Source: Ammoniphilus oxalaticus (GTDB taxonomy: Bacteria; Bacillota; Bacilli; Aneurinibacillales; RAOX-1). Taken from it: a stretch of DNA of 64,000 nt. A program made the translations under genes and the position numbers. Shown piece by piece: positions 2,376-25,637 of this stretch; the first letter of the stretch is position 1; each line of letters opens with the position of its first letter. The notes below the pieces were generated by a model, which searched no databases, was not told the DNA's origin, and worked only from the letters and a program-made list of their open reading frames with translations. The stretch spans positions 496,001-560,000 of the forward strand of contig NZ_MCHY01000008.1 of assembly GCF_003609605.1 (NCBI RefSeq). Direction: 5' to 3'.

Positions 2376-2810
2376 ATGAAATTAGCAACCACCTTATTCG
2401 GCGAACTAGAAATCGAGCAGAAGCAAATCGTTGAGTTTCCGTTAGGGTTGCCCGGCTTCGCTGACGAACAACGCTTTGTGTTCCTACCAATTCCCGATTC
2501 GCCGTTTTTCAGCATGCAATCGGTCACAAGCGAGCTGCAATTTTTCGTAATGAACCCGTTCGAGCTATTCAAAGATTACGAATTCAAAATACCGGGTTCT
2601 TCGATCGAATTATTACAATTGAGCGAACCTGAATCCGTTGCGACATGGGTGATCCTAACATTAAAAGATGAACTTGCCAATTCAACCGCGAACATGCAAG
2701 CCCCGATCATCGTCAACAGCCAGACGCGAATCGGCAAGCAGCTTGTCTTGGAGCACTACCAAATGCGCCAGCCGATCTTCACCATGCCGCCGCTGGCGTT
2801 ACTCGGATAG
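2376..2810 (+). CDS. fliW: Flagellar assembly factor FliW
   Basis: The 144-residue length is usual for FliW. The N-terminus (ELEIEQKQIVEFPLGLPGFA) and the FVFLPIPDSPFF block match the family. FliW binds the CsrA protein and flagellin in a partner switch: when unassembled flagellin accumulates, FliW is sequestered by it and CsrA is released to block hag translation. It is encoded immediately upstream of csrA (16 nt gap) and hag, and the CsrA target hairpin is visible in the hag leader, so the complete regulatory module is present. SD GAAGGAGCTGAGAAGG precedes the ATG. Confidence 0.95.
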   Translation: MKLATTLFGELEIEQKQIVEFPLGLPGFADEQRFVFLPIPDSPFFSMQSVTSELQFFVMNPFELFKDYEFKIPGSSIELLQLSEPESVATWVILTLKDELANSTANMQAPIIVNSQTRIGKQLVLEHYQMRQPIFTMPPLALLG

Positions 2811-2825
2811 GGGGCCCCGGACACC

Positions 2826-3071
2826 ATGTTAGTGCTCAGCCGTAAAACAAACGAGTCGATCATGATCGGCGATGATATCGAAATTACCGTCATAGCCATT
2901 GAAGGGGACCAAGTCAAACTTGGTATCAATGCACCCAAACACGTAGATATACATAGAAAAGAAATCCACCTCGCCATCCAACAAGCCAACCAAGAAGCAG
3001 CCACAGCGGTCAATCAAGTGGACCTGGCCAGCCTTTTAGGGCAACTTAGCGGTAAACGAGAGAAAGAATAG
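2826..3071 (+). CDS. csrA: Translational regulator CsrA
   Basis: The 81-residue protein begins with the canonical [20 protein letters not shown] and contains [18 protein letters not shown], which forms the RNA-binding strand and the dimer swap. The C-terminal extension of about 25 residues is within the range for Bacillales, where it contacts FliW. It binds GGA motifs in mRNA; two such sites lie in the hag leader about 100 nt downstream of this gene. Its stop codon lies inside the stem of a rho-independent terminator. Confidence 0.96.
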
Positions 3072-3096
3072 AGTCTGAAATTGGCTCTATTTTTTA
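3068..3096 (+). terminator. Rho-independent terminator after csrA
   Basis: An 8-bp stem ATAGAGTC / GGCTCTAT with a 7-nt loop is followed by a T-run. The left arm overlaps the csrA stop codon. It separates flhO-flhP-fliW-csrA transcription from hag. Confidence 0.85.
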
Positions 3097-3123
3097 TTCC
3101 ATAGAAAAAAGCGCAAAAAGCGC

Positions 3124-3150
3124 TAAACAATTCCAACCATCAGCCGATAA
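3124..3150 (+). promoter_or_regulatory. Sigma-D (flagellar sigma-28) promoter of hag
   Basis: TAAA (3124-3127), a 15-nt spacer and GCCGATAA (3143-3150) match the Bacillus sigma-D consensus TAAA-N15-GCCGATAT. Transcription should start near 3156, giving a leader of about 55 nt before the hag ATG. Confidence 0.92.
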
Positions 3151-3157
3151 CAATAAT

Positions 3158-3202
3158 GAGTTCAAATGGATGTGAACTCGAAAAAACCAAAAACATGGAG
3201 GT
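3158..3202 (+). promoter_or_regulatory. CsrA-binding leader of hag: GGA-loop hairpin plus GGA in the SD
   Basis: GAGTTCA (3158-3164) pairs with TGAACTC (3173-3179), exposing a loop with GGA at 3168-3170. A second GGA (3197-3199) lies inside the SD GGAGGT (3197-3202). This two-site arrangement, one in a hairpin loop and one on the ribosome-binding site, is the layout known for B. subtilis hag, where a CsrA dimer bridges both and blocks translation. csrA and fliW lie immediately upstream. Confidence 0.88.
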
Positions 3203-3210
3203 AACACATT

Positions 3211-5064
3211 ATGATTATTAATCACAACATCTCAGCATTGAACACACATCGTCAGTTAGGCGCAAACAACAATGCGGTATCTGCATCTTTGGAGAAACTT
3301 TCTTCAGGACTAAAGATTAACCGTGCAGGAGATGATGCTGCTGGGCTAGCAATCTCTGAGAAAATGAGAGGGCAGATTCGTGGGCTAGAGATGGCATCTA
3401 AGAATGCTCAAGATGGAGTCTCACTTATTCAGACTGCTGAAGGTGCATTAAATGAAACACACGCGATTTTACAACGTATGCGTGAACTAGCAGTACAAGC
3501 TAACAACGGTACTAACACTAACGATGATCTAGGGGAATTACAAAAAGAATTTGAAGAACTTTCTGATGAAATAACACGTATCGGAAACAAAACAGAATTT
3601 AATACTAAAACCCTTCTGAACGGATCCTTGGGTGTTCAGGCGGCTGATGGATCGGTTGACATTGCCGATTTAACAGCAGCTGGAATTTCCTTAGATGTAT
3701 CTGGAGTAGCTAAGGGTGCAACTTTAACTTTTGAATTGGATGGTAATGATTCAATTTCTGTATCAGATGGCACTACTACTCAGCAAATTAACATTGATCC
3801 AGAAGCGATTAAAGCTGGTCAAACGTTGAACTTTGATAAGATTGGATTAAAAATGAGCTTCACAGCGGATGTGGACCTATCCAGTGGGATCGATGGGAGT
3901 TCAATTGATGGAACCATTACAACTACTGGAGATGAAATATCATTCCAAATTGGAGCAAATGAGGGTACAACCCTTGACATATCAATAAGTGATATGCGTG
4001 CTGATGCTCTTGGAAAAGGGATAAGTGGAGGTGTAACCGATTTATCTGCTGTTAATCTAACAAATGCAGGTGCAGGATTTGATGAAAATATTAAAGTAAT
4101 TGATCAAGCTATAAAAGAGGTTTCAGCACAGCGCTCACAACTTGGAGCATGGCAAAACCGTTTAGAGCACACAATCAATAACTTAGGTGCTTCAGCTGAG
4201 AACTTAACAGCTGCAGAATCACGTATTAGAGACGTTGATCATACCGAAGCTGCTTAATGCAGCATAAGGTATAGTCGTCCTAACTGGTAACGGTTAGTGA
4301 GTATAATCGGGTGAATTGCTGGAAAATCCTTAGAGCTTGTCTTACCACAACGCAGTCGGAAACGGCAAACGTAAAGGTTTGAAAAAAGACGAGATTGGGC
4401 AATCAGCAGCCAAGCGCCTGTGGCAAAAGCCTGGCGAAGGTTCAACGACTAGGATAAACCATCTAAAAGCTATTAGCTCATGATGATGAAATCCGTAGGT
4501 GACCAAGGTACCTTCTTTTCCGCTTATCCTTGGAATCCGAAGCGCCCGACCCCTACTAGCATGCTAGAGGGTGAAGATATAGTCTAGTCATTTGTGAAAA
4601 CAAGTGTTCGCGCGATGGCGAAAGAGATGATGGACTTCACTAAGAACAACATCTTAACACAAGCGGCACAAGCAATGTTAGCTCAATTTGAACAGGTTGC
4701 ATAATCTGTTCCTAGGGCGTCCGATGAAGCGATTTGTCGGATTATCACTGGGTGAATTGCTGGAACATCCTTAGAGCTTCATGACCACAACATGACTGGA
4801 AACGGTGAGTGTGATGGTTTGAAAACATGAAGATTGGACAATCAGCAGCGAAGCTCCTTTAGAGAAATCTTGGAGAACGTTCAACGACTAGGATATACCG
4901 TCTAAGGCAATCGCTATGACGATGAAATCCATAGGGTGTCAATAGACATTCGAAGCGCCCAGCATCTCACAGAGATGAAGATATAGTCTATTCTATGATC
5001 GAAAGACATAGCGGCAAAGCAAGCCAACCAAACACCACAAGGGGTACTACAGTTACTACGTTAA
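3211..5064 (+). CDS. hag: Flagellin, gene split into three exons by two group I introns
   Basis: Flagellin is the filament subunit. Exon 1 (3211-4239, 343 codons) encodes the N-terminal D0/D1 helices ([20 protein letters not shown]), a variable centre, and D1 up to ESRIRDVD. Read straight on, it meets a stop at 4255-4257 after five intron-coded residues. Exon 2 (4615-4683, 23 codons) encodes [20 protein letters not shown] then MLA. Exon 3 (5020-5064) encodes [14 protein letters not shown] and the stop. Joining 3211-4239, 4615-4683 and 5020-5064 gives 380 residues with an uninterrupted, textbook flagellin C-terminus. Both splice sites follow the group I rule: U ends the upstream exon and G ends the intron. 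The C-terminal helix is needed for filament assembly, so correct splicing should be essential for function. Confidence 0.95.
4240..4614 (+). ncRNA. Group I self-splicing intron 1 in hag (375 nt, no ORF)
   Basis: The conserved core is visible: P element AATTGCTGGAAA (4314-4325), Q AATCAGCAGCC (4401-4411), R TTCAACGACTA (4441-4451) and S AAGATATAGTC (4574-4584). P4 pairs TGCTG (4317-4321) with CAGCA (4404-4408). P7 pairs GACTA (4447-4451) with TAGTC (4580-4584). P3 pairs CGGGTG with CGCCCG. P8 is a hairpin before S. At the 5' splice site, U4239 can form the expected U-G wobble with G4274, flanked by A-U and G-C pairs, and an ATACC/GGTAT stem extends P1. The last intron base is G4614. It encodes no endonuclease. 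The subgroup is probably IA, which I infer from the extra sequence between R and P3'. Confidence 0.93.
4615..4683 (+). CDS. hag: hag exon 2 (69-nt micro-exon)
   Basis: This coding part of hag, 23 codons, lies between the two introns. It encodes the first two thirds of the C-terminal D0 helix. Its first codon is an internal Met, not a start. Its last codon ends in T (GCT), as a group I 5' splice site requires. If intron 1 is removed but intron 2 retained, translation would run on for six residues (QFEQVA) and stop inside intron 2, giving a flagellin that lacks its last 14 residues. Confidence 0.92.
4684..5019 (+). ncRNA. Group I self-splicing intron 2 in hag (336 nt, no ORF)
   Basis: The core elements are P AATTGCTGGAAC (4755-4766), Q AATCAGCAGC (4840-4849), R TTCAACGACTA (4880-4890) and S AAGATATAGTC (4978-4988). 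P7 is GACTA (4886-4890) with TAGTC (4984-4988). P3 is CTGGGTG with CGCCCAG. P8 is the hairpin CATCT/AGATG before S. The 5' end carries a strong GAACAG/CTGTTC hairpin, and G4716 can wobble-pair with U4683 at the splice site. The final G is 5019. Long stretches match intron 1, so the two are paralogues; P1, P2 and P8 differ. No ORF is present. Confidence 0.92.
5020..5064 (+). CDS. hag: hag exon 3 (last 14 codons and stop)
   Basis: It encodes [14 protein letters not shown] plus TAA, which is the invariant extreme C-terminus of flagellins. It is in frame with exon 2 once intron 2 is removed (codon phase 0 at both junctions). Confidence 0.93.
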   Translation, partial: QANQTPQGVLQLLR

Positions 5065-5078
5065 TATTTTAGCCCAAT

Positions 5079-5112
5079 CAAGAAGTCAGTTTATAAACTG
5101 ACTTCTTGTATT
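5079..5112 (+). terminator. Rho-independent terminator after hag
   Basis: A perfect 30-nt palindrome (5079-5108, arms CAAGAAGTCAGTTT) is followed by TATTTT. It closes the hag transcript 14 nt after the exon 3 stop. Confidence 0.88.
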
Positions 5113-5129
5113 TTAAGGAGGGGTATCTT

Positions 5130-5411
5130 TTGAGAAATTTTCAACCAATCGTCAAAGCAGTAAAAGAATCGGGGGATTATGAAATCTTTTCTTTTGTTGT
5201 TGATGGAAGTATAAAAGTTGTTATAGAAGAAATGTGTGGATATAACTTCCGATCTGACGATATAAAAGAGGAGTTTATTATGGAGTTAGAAAAATTCAAA
5301 TCTTGCCTAGATAATGCACCAGACGATTTTAACGATAATGACAGGATGGAAGCTAAGGATTTTGTTGAGAAATTACTCAAAGTATATTTTAAATCTGGAA
5401 AGTTGATGTAA
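5130..5411 (+). CDS. Small acidic protein of unknown function
   Basis: I do not recognise this gene. An AAGGAGGGG (about 5115-5123) stands 6 nt before TTG at 5130, so I prefer this start (93 residues) to the upstream TTG at 5106, which lies inside the hag terminator. The product is acidic and Lys/Glu/Asp-rich with no Cys cluster, signal peptide or membrane segment (motifs such as FNDNDRMEAKDFVEKLL). Its AT content is higher than that of the neighbouring flagellar genes. It lies at the left edge of the accessory patch; a CdiI-like or SMI-type immunity protein is possible but unproven. Confidence 0.55.
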   Translation: MRNFQPIVKAVKESGDYEIFSFVVDGSIKVVIEEMCGYNFRSDDIKEEFIMELEKFKSCLDNAPDDFNDNDRMEAKDFVEKLLKVYFKSGKLM

Positions 5412-5813
5412 CCTTGAATCTAAATTATGGTTGAGTGAATAGTTAAATATTGCTGAGATTTTATGAATCACAATAGAAATGTGCTCGCCTCGGGGGATAC
5501 CCCTCGGGTAGGGATCGCATCCCTAGCGAATTTTGTCGAACACACAACTCTTCCGGGGTGCCATTCCTCTGCCGAATTTCCATCCATTTCAAATAGAGAT
5601 TCGATAGAGGTGTGGCACCCTTTATCGTTGCTCGCCAAAAGGGTCTGGGCCAAATTGAATAGATTAACGTTTGAAGTTTTAACATTTAGAGAATCTAAGG
5701 CATTCTAATGTTCATTAGTAATAAGAAGGAAGCTACTTTCCACATCGGGAACCAAAGTAAGATGTCTTAAAACGCCTAATATGCTGAAGTTTCTGCTTTT
5801 TTTCGGAGTTATG
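5412..5813 (+). other. Non-coding stretch with a cluster of strong hairpins
   Basis: I see no supported gene here. Three inverted repeats stand out: GGGG/CCCC around GATA (about 5492-5503), TAGGGAT/ATCCCTA with a 3-nt loop (5509-5525), and a long imperfect stem GGGTGCCA..CCTCT (5556-5570) pairing with AGAGG..TGGCACCC (5606-5620). The segment is GC-richer than its AT-rich surroundings. Short open frames across it on both strands look like by-products of the inverted repeats. Confidence 0.5.
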
Positions 5814-6853
5814 CTATAGGAATTCTGTTTTTCTTAGTTCCCTTAATTTATAGACTACTGACCAGTATGTCTGATTTAATTGCTGGGCAATGGCTTTATC
5901 TGTTGACCCTGACTTTTTCAATTTTATTAGAGTTTTTATTTCTGTATTTGAGTTGACTTTTCTACGTCCAGAAGAGCTTAACTTTATGCAAATATTATCT
6001 CCGAATTTCCCCTTGATATCGTGGGTTTTTAGCTGTATATTCTTACGTAGGCAGGTCTTGTATTCCATAGATGGTATTTCTTTCACAAAAGGATAAATAA
6101 TCTTTAGAAAGTGTAAAACTTCTTGCTCTTTGTTTATTTTTAATAAAGTTTTGTGACCATCAGGATGTCTTGAAACGACAAAATCTGTGCCAAATGTTAG
6201 ATTAAGATGAGTTGCAAGAGAGTGGTTTTCAGATTCAGTAAAATTCAAAGTATATAAAATAATGCTCGGATGACAATAAACCGTTTGTTTGCTCTTATTG
6301 TAATGGTAAGTGATAGTTAAACTACCGTCATCTAAGTACAGAGTCGCTAAGAAGATAGGATGAGTGCATTTGGCAAGATAGCAAGCAGTTATTGTTTTTA
6401 TTCCATTCGGGTATAGAACTTTATGCAATTTTGTGAAAAAAGGATGGCTTTTAGATCGAAGGTGGTTGCCGTTTATGGAGAAATTAAGGTTTCCTAATTT
6501 AGATTGTTTCCACTGTCTGTAATTTCTTTGACTTTCCCCAAAATGTTCTTGATAATAATAGTTAAGACTTCTTTGCGCCCCTTACTTATATAGCCATCAC
6601 CAAGTAGGCTACCTAAAATAATTTGTTCCTGTAAGTGAGTAGGTGAAAAGGGCGGTATGTTTGCTTCATACCACTTTCTCCGATCTTCGACTAGACGGTT
6701 CATTAAACTCTTCTTATAATCTTCACATTTCTTTAGATCAAGTCCTTTAGCGATACTACGAACCTTGCTGGGTGTTAAATTAAGTTTTCTTGCAACGTAG
6801 TCAGTTGAATTAGTTGGATAATGATTTATAATATACTCTATTTTATTTTTCAT
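5814..6853 (-). pseudogene. Free-standing LAGLIDADG homing endonuclease gene, broken by a single frameshift
   Basis: Read right to left, the gene begins at ATG 6853 after a GGAGGG SD. It encodes an N-terminal helix-turn-helix-like part (ARKLNLTPSKVRSIAKGLDL), then the first LAGLIDADG motif IILGSLLGDGYI. At about 6572-6574, in a run of A on this strand, one base is missing. One frame over, the protein continues without a stop: YYYQEHFGESQRNYRQWKQS, then the second motif FLATLYLDDGSLTI. A C-terminal helix-turn-helix segment (STDKAIAQQLNQTYWSVVYK) follows. The repaired length is about 346 residues, so it was a monomeric two-motif enzyme. It faces hag and lies 750 bp from intron 2, not inside an intron. 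Confidence 0.85.
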
Positions 6854-6984
6854 ACAACCCTCCAAAGAACACCTGTTCTCACTCTATTGTATCACAGCAT
6901 AGGTTGTTGAGGTAGGTAATTTGTATGTGTGTCATAGTTTATAATGATCTTTTCACCGTATTTAGGTTAGAAGAGGCGGGATAA

Positions 6985-24755: not shown

Positions 24756-25637
24756 ATGTCTGTGCGCGTAACGCAAACAATGTTGAATCGAAACATGTTA
24801 AGTAATTTAAACCGAAGCTATCAAGTCCTTGATAAATATCAAAACCAGCTGTCAACTGGAAAGAAGTTAAACAAACCATCAGATGATCCGGTTAGCGTTT
24901 ATCAAGCGATGGCTCACCGCTCAAACGTGGTGGAGATCGAACAGTACAAACGAAATGCGAAAGATGGTTTAAGCTGGATTGAAGTTACAGATGAGGCGCT
25001 TGATCAGGTGACAAATGTGTTGCATCGAGTTAGGGAGTTAGTCGTATTGGCAAGCAATGGAACCAATGAAGATACTTCTATGGGTGCGATCAAAGCAGAG
25101 ATAGAACAGCTGAGGGATCATGTTGGTGAGATCGCGAATACGACCATTGGTGACAAGTATATTTTTTCAGGCACTGATACGAAAGAAAGGCCATACGGCG
25201 AGAATGGATTCTCAATTGACGACGATGCTGGTGAGATAGAATGGGAAGTAGGACAGCAGAGCATGATTAAAGTGAGTGTAAATGGCTCAAACATCTTTTC
25301 GGGCCTCTTGGGTGGATCCGGAGAAGGTATGTTTGATGAAATTCTCAATGATTTAGAAAATGGCAACCCTGGGAACTGGTTAGGAGAAATAGATGAGCAA
25401 CTAGATACAGTTCTAACTGAACGGGCAAGCGTCGGCGCGAATATGAATCGGATGGAATTGGTGTTGTCCAGGCTTGATCAAGTTGAAATTACAACGAAGA
25501 AGTTGTTGTCAAAGACAGAAGATGCTGATATCGCTGAGACGATTACGGAATTAATCACGCAAGAAAATGTGCATCGAGCCGCACTATCCGCGGGCGCTAG
25601 AATTATTCAACCGAGCCTGGTTGATTTCTTACGTTAA
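24756..25637 (+). CDS. flgL: Flagellar hook-associated protein 3 FlgL
   Basis: The 293-residue flagellin-like protein has MSVRVTQTMLNRNMLSNLNR at the N-terminus and YQNQLSTGKKLNKPSDDPVS (about residues 28-47), a classic FlgL segment. C-terminal helices with TEDADIAETITELITQENVH mirror the flagellin D1. It is the second hook-filament junction protein. GAGGAGGTGGATGAAGA precedes the ATG. Unlike hag in this genome, no intron interrupts its C-terminal region. Confidence 0.95.
   Translation: MSVRVTQTMLNRNMLSNLNRSYQVLDKYQNQLSTGKKLNKPSDDPVSVYQAMAHRSNVVEIEQYKRNAKDGLSWIEVTDEALDQVTNVLHRVRELVVLASNGTNEDTSMGAIKAEIEQLRDHVGEIANTTIGDKYIFSGTDTKERPYGENGFSIDDDAGEIEWEVGQQSMIKVSVNGSNIFSGLLGGSGEGMFDEILNDLENGNPGNWLGEIDEQLDTVLTERASVGANMNRMELVLSRLDQVEITTKKLLSKTEDADIAETITELITQENVHRAALSAGARIIQPSLVDFLR

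Follow-up and report, generated by a model that had tools for sequence, protein, structure and literature searches.

The hag gene of Ammoniphilus oxalaticus raises the question of how a flagellin gene that is interrupted twice in its conserved C-terminal coding region can still yield a complete flagellin, and where its interruptions come from. The gene lies in the stretch of 64,000 nucleotides analyzed here (the window), in which the following features were delimited.

2376-2810, plus strand: fliW, upstream of hag (name by ORF reading)
2826-3071, plus strand: csrA, just upstream of hag (name by ORF reading)
3124-3150, plus strand: sigma-D type promoter-like sequence, TAAA-N15-GCCGATAA (letters compared with the consensus)
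3211-4239, plus strand: hag exon 1 (ORF reading, Pfam, exon joining)
4240-4614, plus strand: group I intron 1, 375 nt (RF00028, P1 fold, grouping with site-1 introns)
4615-4683, plus strand: hag exon 2, 69 nt (sequence reading)
4684-5019, plus strand: group I intron 2, 336 nt (RF00028, P1 fold of GCU/C with GGGC; a slash marks a splice site here and below)
5020-5064, plus strand: hag exon 3 (sequence reading, Pfam on the joined protein)
5079-5108, plus strand: intrinsic terminator-like hairpin of 13 pairs, 3' of exon 3
5814-6865, minus strand: gene for a free-standing LAGLIDADG_2 homing endonuclease, antisense to hag and broken into two reading frames

The promoter-like element is named sigma-D-like by comparison with the sigma-D consensus, and four terminator-like hairpins were present in 2800-5500 against 2.3 expected. 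An ORF at 5106-5411, between hag and the broken endonuclease gene, had no Pfam match at E 0.1.

The window hag is a flagellin gene containing group I introns, as assigned by RF00028 and Flagellin_C. A preliminary description of the window had proposed two such introns and a search with the Rfam group I model. In that search (cmscan, cut-off 50 bits) both introns matched over the full model, intron 1 at 4245-4606 with 82.4 bits (E 2e-19) and intron 2 at 4686-5011 with 79.2 bits (E 1.7e-18), and the two share 78% identity across 192 nt of core. Intron 1 is bounded by GAT/CATACC...CGCGCG/ATGGCG, placing site 1 after RDVD and before MAKE, and intron 2 by GCT/CAATTT...GCAAAG/CAAGCC, placing site 2 after MLA and before QANQ. 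The proposed U before each 5' site and G as the last base of each intron were exact. When the exon-intron stretch alone is folded, the two U residues form U.G pairs exactly at the 5' sites, U4239.G4274 in a fold with z -3.2 (2/200 shuffles as good) and U4683.G4716 in a fold with z -1.3 (22/200 shuffles as good), which is weak when taken alone. Joining 3211-4239, 4615-4683 and 5020-5064 gave, precisely as proposed, an in-frame reading of 380 codons plus stop, the product of which covers positions 1-86 of the 86 of Pfam Flagellin_C, compared to 1-54 of 86 in the unspliced ORF, a truncated reading of 348 residues at 3211-4257 that had also been correctly described. Direct joining of site 1 to site 2, which skips the 69-nt exon 2, would also keep the frame, at the cost of 23 residues.

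Unspliced RNA reads RDVD-HTEAA and then meets an in-frame stop five codons into intron 1, and RNA from which only intron 1 has been removed reads MLA-QFEQVA and stops. A complete flagellin requires the removal of both introns, since a ribosome entering intron 1 meets a stop after five codons and one entering intron 2 after six. The preliminary description had named an intact hag copy elsewhere in the genome as another possible source of the filament; such a copy was looked for throughout the genome (3.32 Mb in 13 contigs, 99.93% complete, the window being on contig 8) and no further flagellin gene was found. The one remaining protein match of the flagellin search (C8:520828) falls in an ORF at window positions 24756-25637, which we read as the hook protein FlgL. 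Because this search found no other flagellin gene, the two splicings look obligatory for full-length flagellin in the window strain.

RF00028 had four matches in this genome. The fourth is a relic consisting of the 3' part of intron 2 followed by exon 3 (L006:2263-2518; C6:539812-540017, minus strand), with 86% identity over 144 nt to intron 2 plus exon 3 of the window; a second hag with intron 2 therefore probably once existed in the same genome. The third (52.9 bits) lies in a ribonucleotide reductase gene, named by ORF reading (C6:39021; L005:1557-2772), and this intron holds a 304-residue ORF (L005, 1667-2581) that looks like an intron-encoded nuclease.

The origin of the introns was examined in a comparison set of 4 genomes of the family and 15 of the order, the strain's own genome included. 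RF00028 matched in 9 of the 14 other genomes of the order, with 14 matches in all, and none of these 14 loci had a flagellin match; the flagellin C-termini of three family members (G001-G003) are uninterrupted. On the evidence of these genomes, inheritance of the hag introns within the order was ruled out. A known phage carrying whole introns was also ruled out, since distant blastn searches, in which 90 and 108 phage records matched parts of the two intron queries, gave no phage record where one place covers 80% of either query. We also considered that hag and its introns may have been gained together from other Bacilli. In favor of such a transfer, GC3 is 25.7% in exon 1 but 47-61% in three genes a short way upstream, and the N-terminus of hag matches other Bacilli at 75-80% (best 12) and its own family at 63-74%. 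On the other hand, rpsB of the window has a GC3 of 39.9%, and when the C-terminal part of exon 1 is compared, L010, a member of the family, comes 8th.

Public genomes were then scanned with a pattern in which either exon follows the 3' end of a group I intron, which returned at least 119 stretches. Outside the window the pattern matched at least 64 times at site 1 (before MAKE), at least 73 times at site 2 (before QANQ) and at least 7 times elsewhere, so that 137 of the 144 matches listed, from at least 119 public loci, sit at the two sites of the window. Of 36 loci scanned, 34 gave at least one RF00028 match at the gathering score (the misses being L073 and L075). A site-2 intron of the Rossellomorea aquimaris locus L056, used as a query that includes the spare C-terminus described below, had matches in 68 of 398 genomes drawn evenly from the class, not all of them in hag; most genomes of the class are therefore without the site-2 intron. 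Both C-termini were visible in 25 of the 30 loci fetched from this search.

In a tree of intron cores (L134, which has no recognised core, was left out) the introns formed two groups by site, with two label changes. Three of 64 site-2 introns (L038, L045 of Exiguobacterium antarcticum and L049) fell among the site-1 introns, a placement flagged as a long-branch join and a caution against assuming a single origin per site. The site labels derive from one pattern; in L095, to which it gave the label site-2-only, RF00028 also matches immediately upstream of exon 2. Closely alike inserts of 280-283 nt were also present at a third flagellin site, close to residue 69 in the N-terminal part of the coding sequence. 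They occur in 4 loci of the 119, a set in which some loci do not include the N-terminal region:

L059, 1325-1605: third-site insert
L076, minus strand, 7190-6910: third-site insert
L080, 5759-6038: third-site insert
L142, 4838-5120: third-site insert

The L059 insert, the only one tested, matches RF00028 with 56.6 bits and is thus a group I intron, one that a faster whole-locus scan had missed. The window gene is uninterrupted at this position.

Record titles among the matches listed include Exiguobacterium antarcticum, Psychrobacillus, Planococcus halocryophilus, Oceanobacillus, Halobacillus and Clostridia. Psychrobacillus, E. antarcticum and P. halocryophilus are not known as thermophiles, so that the hag intron family does not appear confined to thermophiles. 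With the two sites also occupied in records so named, a heat switch is unlikely as a general explanation of the hag introns.

Most site-2 introns of the family carry a second ending for the gene they interrupt. Of the 65 readable site-2 introns, window included, 61 open with a copy of the C-terminus of flagellin, in frame and closed by a stop (in 9 of the 74 site-2 matches the 5' exon could not be read, and these were left out). The copy comprises the last 14 codons of hag plus the stop and is followed by the intron core and then by the exon 3 end; as it is in frame and ends in a stop, the unspliced RNA also encodes a full-length flagellin. Locus L051 is counted among the 61 and in the pN/pS analysis, though it is doubtful, its C-termini being 901 nt apart. 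The copy is absent from the window, from Oceanobacillus luteolus L074 (QFEQIAA, then stop), from L038, the 5' site of which is unsure because no U stands at the assumed position, and from L066, where a copy of the same length is broken by stops and the upstream exon is broken too. No equivalent copy was found at site 1, where each of the 62 readable introns brings a stop within 5 or 6 codons. Among 12 public genomes with the copy, a single flagellin N-terminus (E 1e-20) was present in eight and two in three; in the genome of L076 (G409) one N-terminus is in two pieces, split by a further intron.

Both C-terminal endings are under purifying selection. The pN/pS ratio was 0.235 for the intron copy (60 distinct sequences) and 0.154 for exon 3 (48 distinct), compared to 0.243 for exon 2, and the two wrong frames of the intron copy gave 0.77 and 3.6. 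The copy and exon 3 are alike at a mean of 29 of 42 nt within a locus and 28 between loci. Their last residue agreed in 58 of 61 loci against a shuffled mean of 45.5, with 0/10000 shuffles as high, a figure that serves as a guide only since the loci are related and shuffles and exact tests therefore overstate their independence. The exon 3 ratio bears on the possibility that intron and exon 3 of the relatives form a 3'-UTR remnant that does not splice, the window gene itself being in decay in cells that do not swim. The broken copy and exon of L066 and the decay of the second hag of this genome to a relic would fit such a history, but selection acts on exon 3 behind the intron, RF00028 reaches the gathering score in nearly all loci scanned, the 5' site GCT/C is kept in 63 of 65 site-2 introns and the exons of the window are intact; we regard this history as very improbable.

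The copy also appears to be accommodated by the structure of the intron. The guide GGG[C/T] was found in 60 of the 61 copy loci, 7-18 nt past the stop of the copy (8-10 nt in 48 of the 60), and the one copy without GGG[C/T] in reach was left out of the P1 test. Bases at the beginning of the copy pair with those just past its stop. A single fixed register for this P1 extension did not fit all loci, and the strands were therefore compared by duplex energy, which averaged -5.63 over the 60 loci against -3.72 (sd 0.21) when strands were exchanged between loci, with 0/5000 exchanges as low. The locus-specific pairing, the kept guide and 5' site and the selection on both endings together place the copy in the loop of P1, with the 5' splice site still able to form, and indicate that both endings are kept as protein.

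The pairing between the start of the copy and the bases past its stop, specific to each locus, would also be expected if the copy were RNA structure only, shaping the P1 loop, never translated and always removed by complete splicing. The last 7 codons of the copy, which lie in the loop, argue against this, as they have a pN/pS of 0.135 with variable third positions (mean minor-allele share 0.37 at position 3, 0.18 at position 1 and 0.04 at position 2), and frame, length and stop of the copy are kept in 61 of 65 introns. A purely structural role thus seems improbable. Our reading is that in the copy-bearing relatives unspliced and spliced RNA would both be translated.

The preliminary description further held that hag expression needs two splicing events, which would add a checkpoint after sigma-D and CsrA control. 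The need for two removals stands, but the sequence gives no sign of regulation. A broader proposal is that the introns are regulators, temperature or translation setting the fraction of spliced hag, and that in the window two of them serve as a checkpoint; it is weakened by this same lack of a regulatory sign and by the presence of the same introns in genera not known as thermophiles. In its favor, the stop of the copy lies so close before the guide that a terminating ribosome should cover the latter. Temperature-dependent splicing of flagellin introns in thermophilic Firmicutes, which the preliminary description had stated for thermophilic Bacillus/Geobacillus, is in print (PMC3984707, PMC4853749). 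On balance we consider a regulatory role doubtful.

Intron 2 of the window, which reads QFEQVA and stops, lacks the spare C-terminus and belongs to the family by its core only. It joins the intron of L074 (SH-aLRT 90) inside the copy-bearing site-2 introns, and for this reason it has probably lost its copy, which would have reduced the P1 hairpin and made the splice obligatory; the loss depends on branches with SH-aLRT 90. Odder than the presence of two introns is that splicing, which looks optional for most relatives of intron 2, is not so in the window.

The broken gene behind hag points to how the introns may have spread. Its larger piece, 753 nt from the hag stop, matched PF03161 with 39.4 bits (E 7.8e-10, cut-off 25 bits), and its smaller piece gave 13.0 bits (E 0.099), below the cut-off. 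Of 92 intron-bearing hag ends, the window among them, 36 are followed within 1.5 kb by a LAGLIDADG gene, compared to 1 of 28 uninterrupted hag genes (p 1.4e-4, with control and intron loci sampled in different ways); the other 56 of the 92 ends have no endonuclease within 1.5 kb. Hag ends followed by less than 1.3 kb (24 of 116) were left out. The controls began as 33 loci, from which L188, L196 and L199 were dropped for site-2 introns (L196 also has an endonuclease) and L181 and L201 because too little DNA follows; intron absence in the other controls was judged by a short motif and the listing from the L056 search. In control L200 hag is uninterrupted and is followed, after about 90 nt, by a LAGLIDADG gene in antisense orientation; here the intron has perhaps been lost or not yet gained.

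The endonuclease is antisense to hag in all 48 ORF pieces and ends 25-68 nt from the hag stop in 22 of the 41 hag ends that have one, and Pfam LAGLIDADG_2 was found in 10 of 10 tested. In the endonuclease tree (58 rows) one clade contained all 16 site-1-only rows together with the site-2-only L094, the gene of which is 2.3 kb away, and the other contained 16 of the 17 site-2-only rows; loci with both introns and unlabelled rows occurred in either. The larger piece of the window falls in the site-2 clade and the endonuclease of L074 in the site-1 clade. This pattern fits free-standing endonucleases that mobilise the intron of a neighboring gene, by analogy with phages (PMC2988022). The preliminary description had mentioned neither the broken LAGLIDADG gene nor the relic of a second hag nor the spare C-terminus of the family.

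Taken together, it is very probable that hag of the window is split by two self-excising introns of this family, probably spread by endonucleases, and that here the copy has been lost and the endonuclease broken. In such a mechanism P1 would pair GAU or GCU, the last bases of the 5' exon, with the guide of the intron, guanosine would attack the 5' site and the exons would then join, each intron excising itself from the mRNA. Introns of this large family occupy these sites in hag genes of Bacillota and were probably spread by the free-standing antisense LAGLIDADG endonucleases, the subfamilies of which match the intron site. The usual site-2 intron, with the copy in its P1 loop, would allow unspliced and spliced mRNA both to give full-length flagellin. 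Loss of the copy and breakage of the endonuclease would leave the window with fixed introns reliant on splicing. A bolder view, for which we find the case evenly balanced, is that site-2 introns throughout Bacillota are maintained two-way elements: either the ribosome ends flagellin on the copy in the P1 loop or the RNA splices to exon 3, selection keeps both endings, and the window represents a lineage that has lost the fallback and come to need splicing. If true, this would be a widespread alternative splicing by a bacterial group I intron, kept by selection, in which translation and splicing compete for one hairpin.

Few proteins of a swimming cell are produced in larger amounts than flagellin, and annotation of flagellin genes relies on ORF finders. 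In the window the ORF comes out short. Among the relatives whose site-2 intron could be read, most have an ORF without visible fault, with the intron hidden past its stop, so that the arrangement is easily overlooked. The system offers a test of the competition between ribosome and self-splicing RNA on one bacterial mRNA, and bears on how a mobile intron can be harmless whether spliced or not and on how endonucleases outside introns may move introns between genera.

Hayakawa and Ishizuka reportedly described flagellin-gene group I introns from Geobacillus stearothermophilus and thermophilic Bacillus in 2009 and 2012. Such introns are documented for these organisms (PMC3984707, PMC4853749), and the introns of the window are likewise group I introns in a bacterial flagellin gene. 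Two introns at two conserved sites are present here, and the passages on flagellin introns in PMC3984707 and PMC4853749 speak neither of a spare C-terminus nor of an endonuclease next to hag. The two-intron flagellin gene is thus of an already-known kind. For the family variant that seems to bring its own ending for the interrupted gene, no description was found in the open-access literature; that search, which took in few subscription papers, concerned a spare host-gene end in a flagellin group I intron and endonucleases behind hag.

The free-standing endonuclease F-CphI of cyanophage S-PM2 has psbA as its target. It acts on the intron of a neighboring gene (PMC6083498), as do the free-standing endonucleases of collaborative homing and mobE with the nrdB intron of phage T4 (PMC2988022). 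As in these cases, the endonuclease genes behind hag lie outside the intron and near the intron-bearing gene, a likeness of position and subfamily association only. In contrast to the phage cases, the genes behind hag are chromosomal and bacterial, belong to LAGLIDADG_2, run antisense and form subfamilies in line with the two intron sites. In phage Twort orf142, tandem similar group I introns are associated with exon skipping (PMC10136302). There as here two related group I introns flank a short exon; the hag exon 2, on the other hand, is 69 nt long and its in-frame skipping would remove 23 residues. The closest likeness to the copy-bearing relatives is to C.te.I1, a group II intron in the surface-layer gene of Clostridium tetani, where unspliced and spliced mRNA each encode an isoform of a surface protein, as the hag relatives are predicted to do. 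Alternative splicing of C.te.I1 was shown by experiment in one species (PMC3919590), whereas the hag introns are of group I, occur in many genera and would give near-identical C-termini from a copy placed inside the intron itself.
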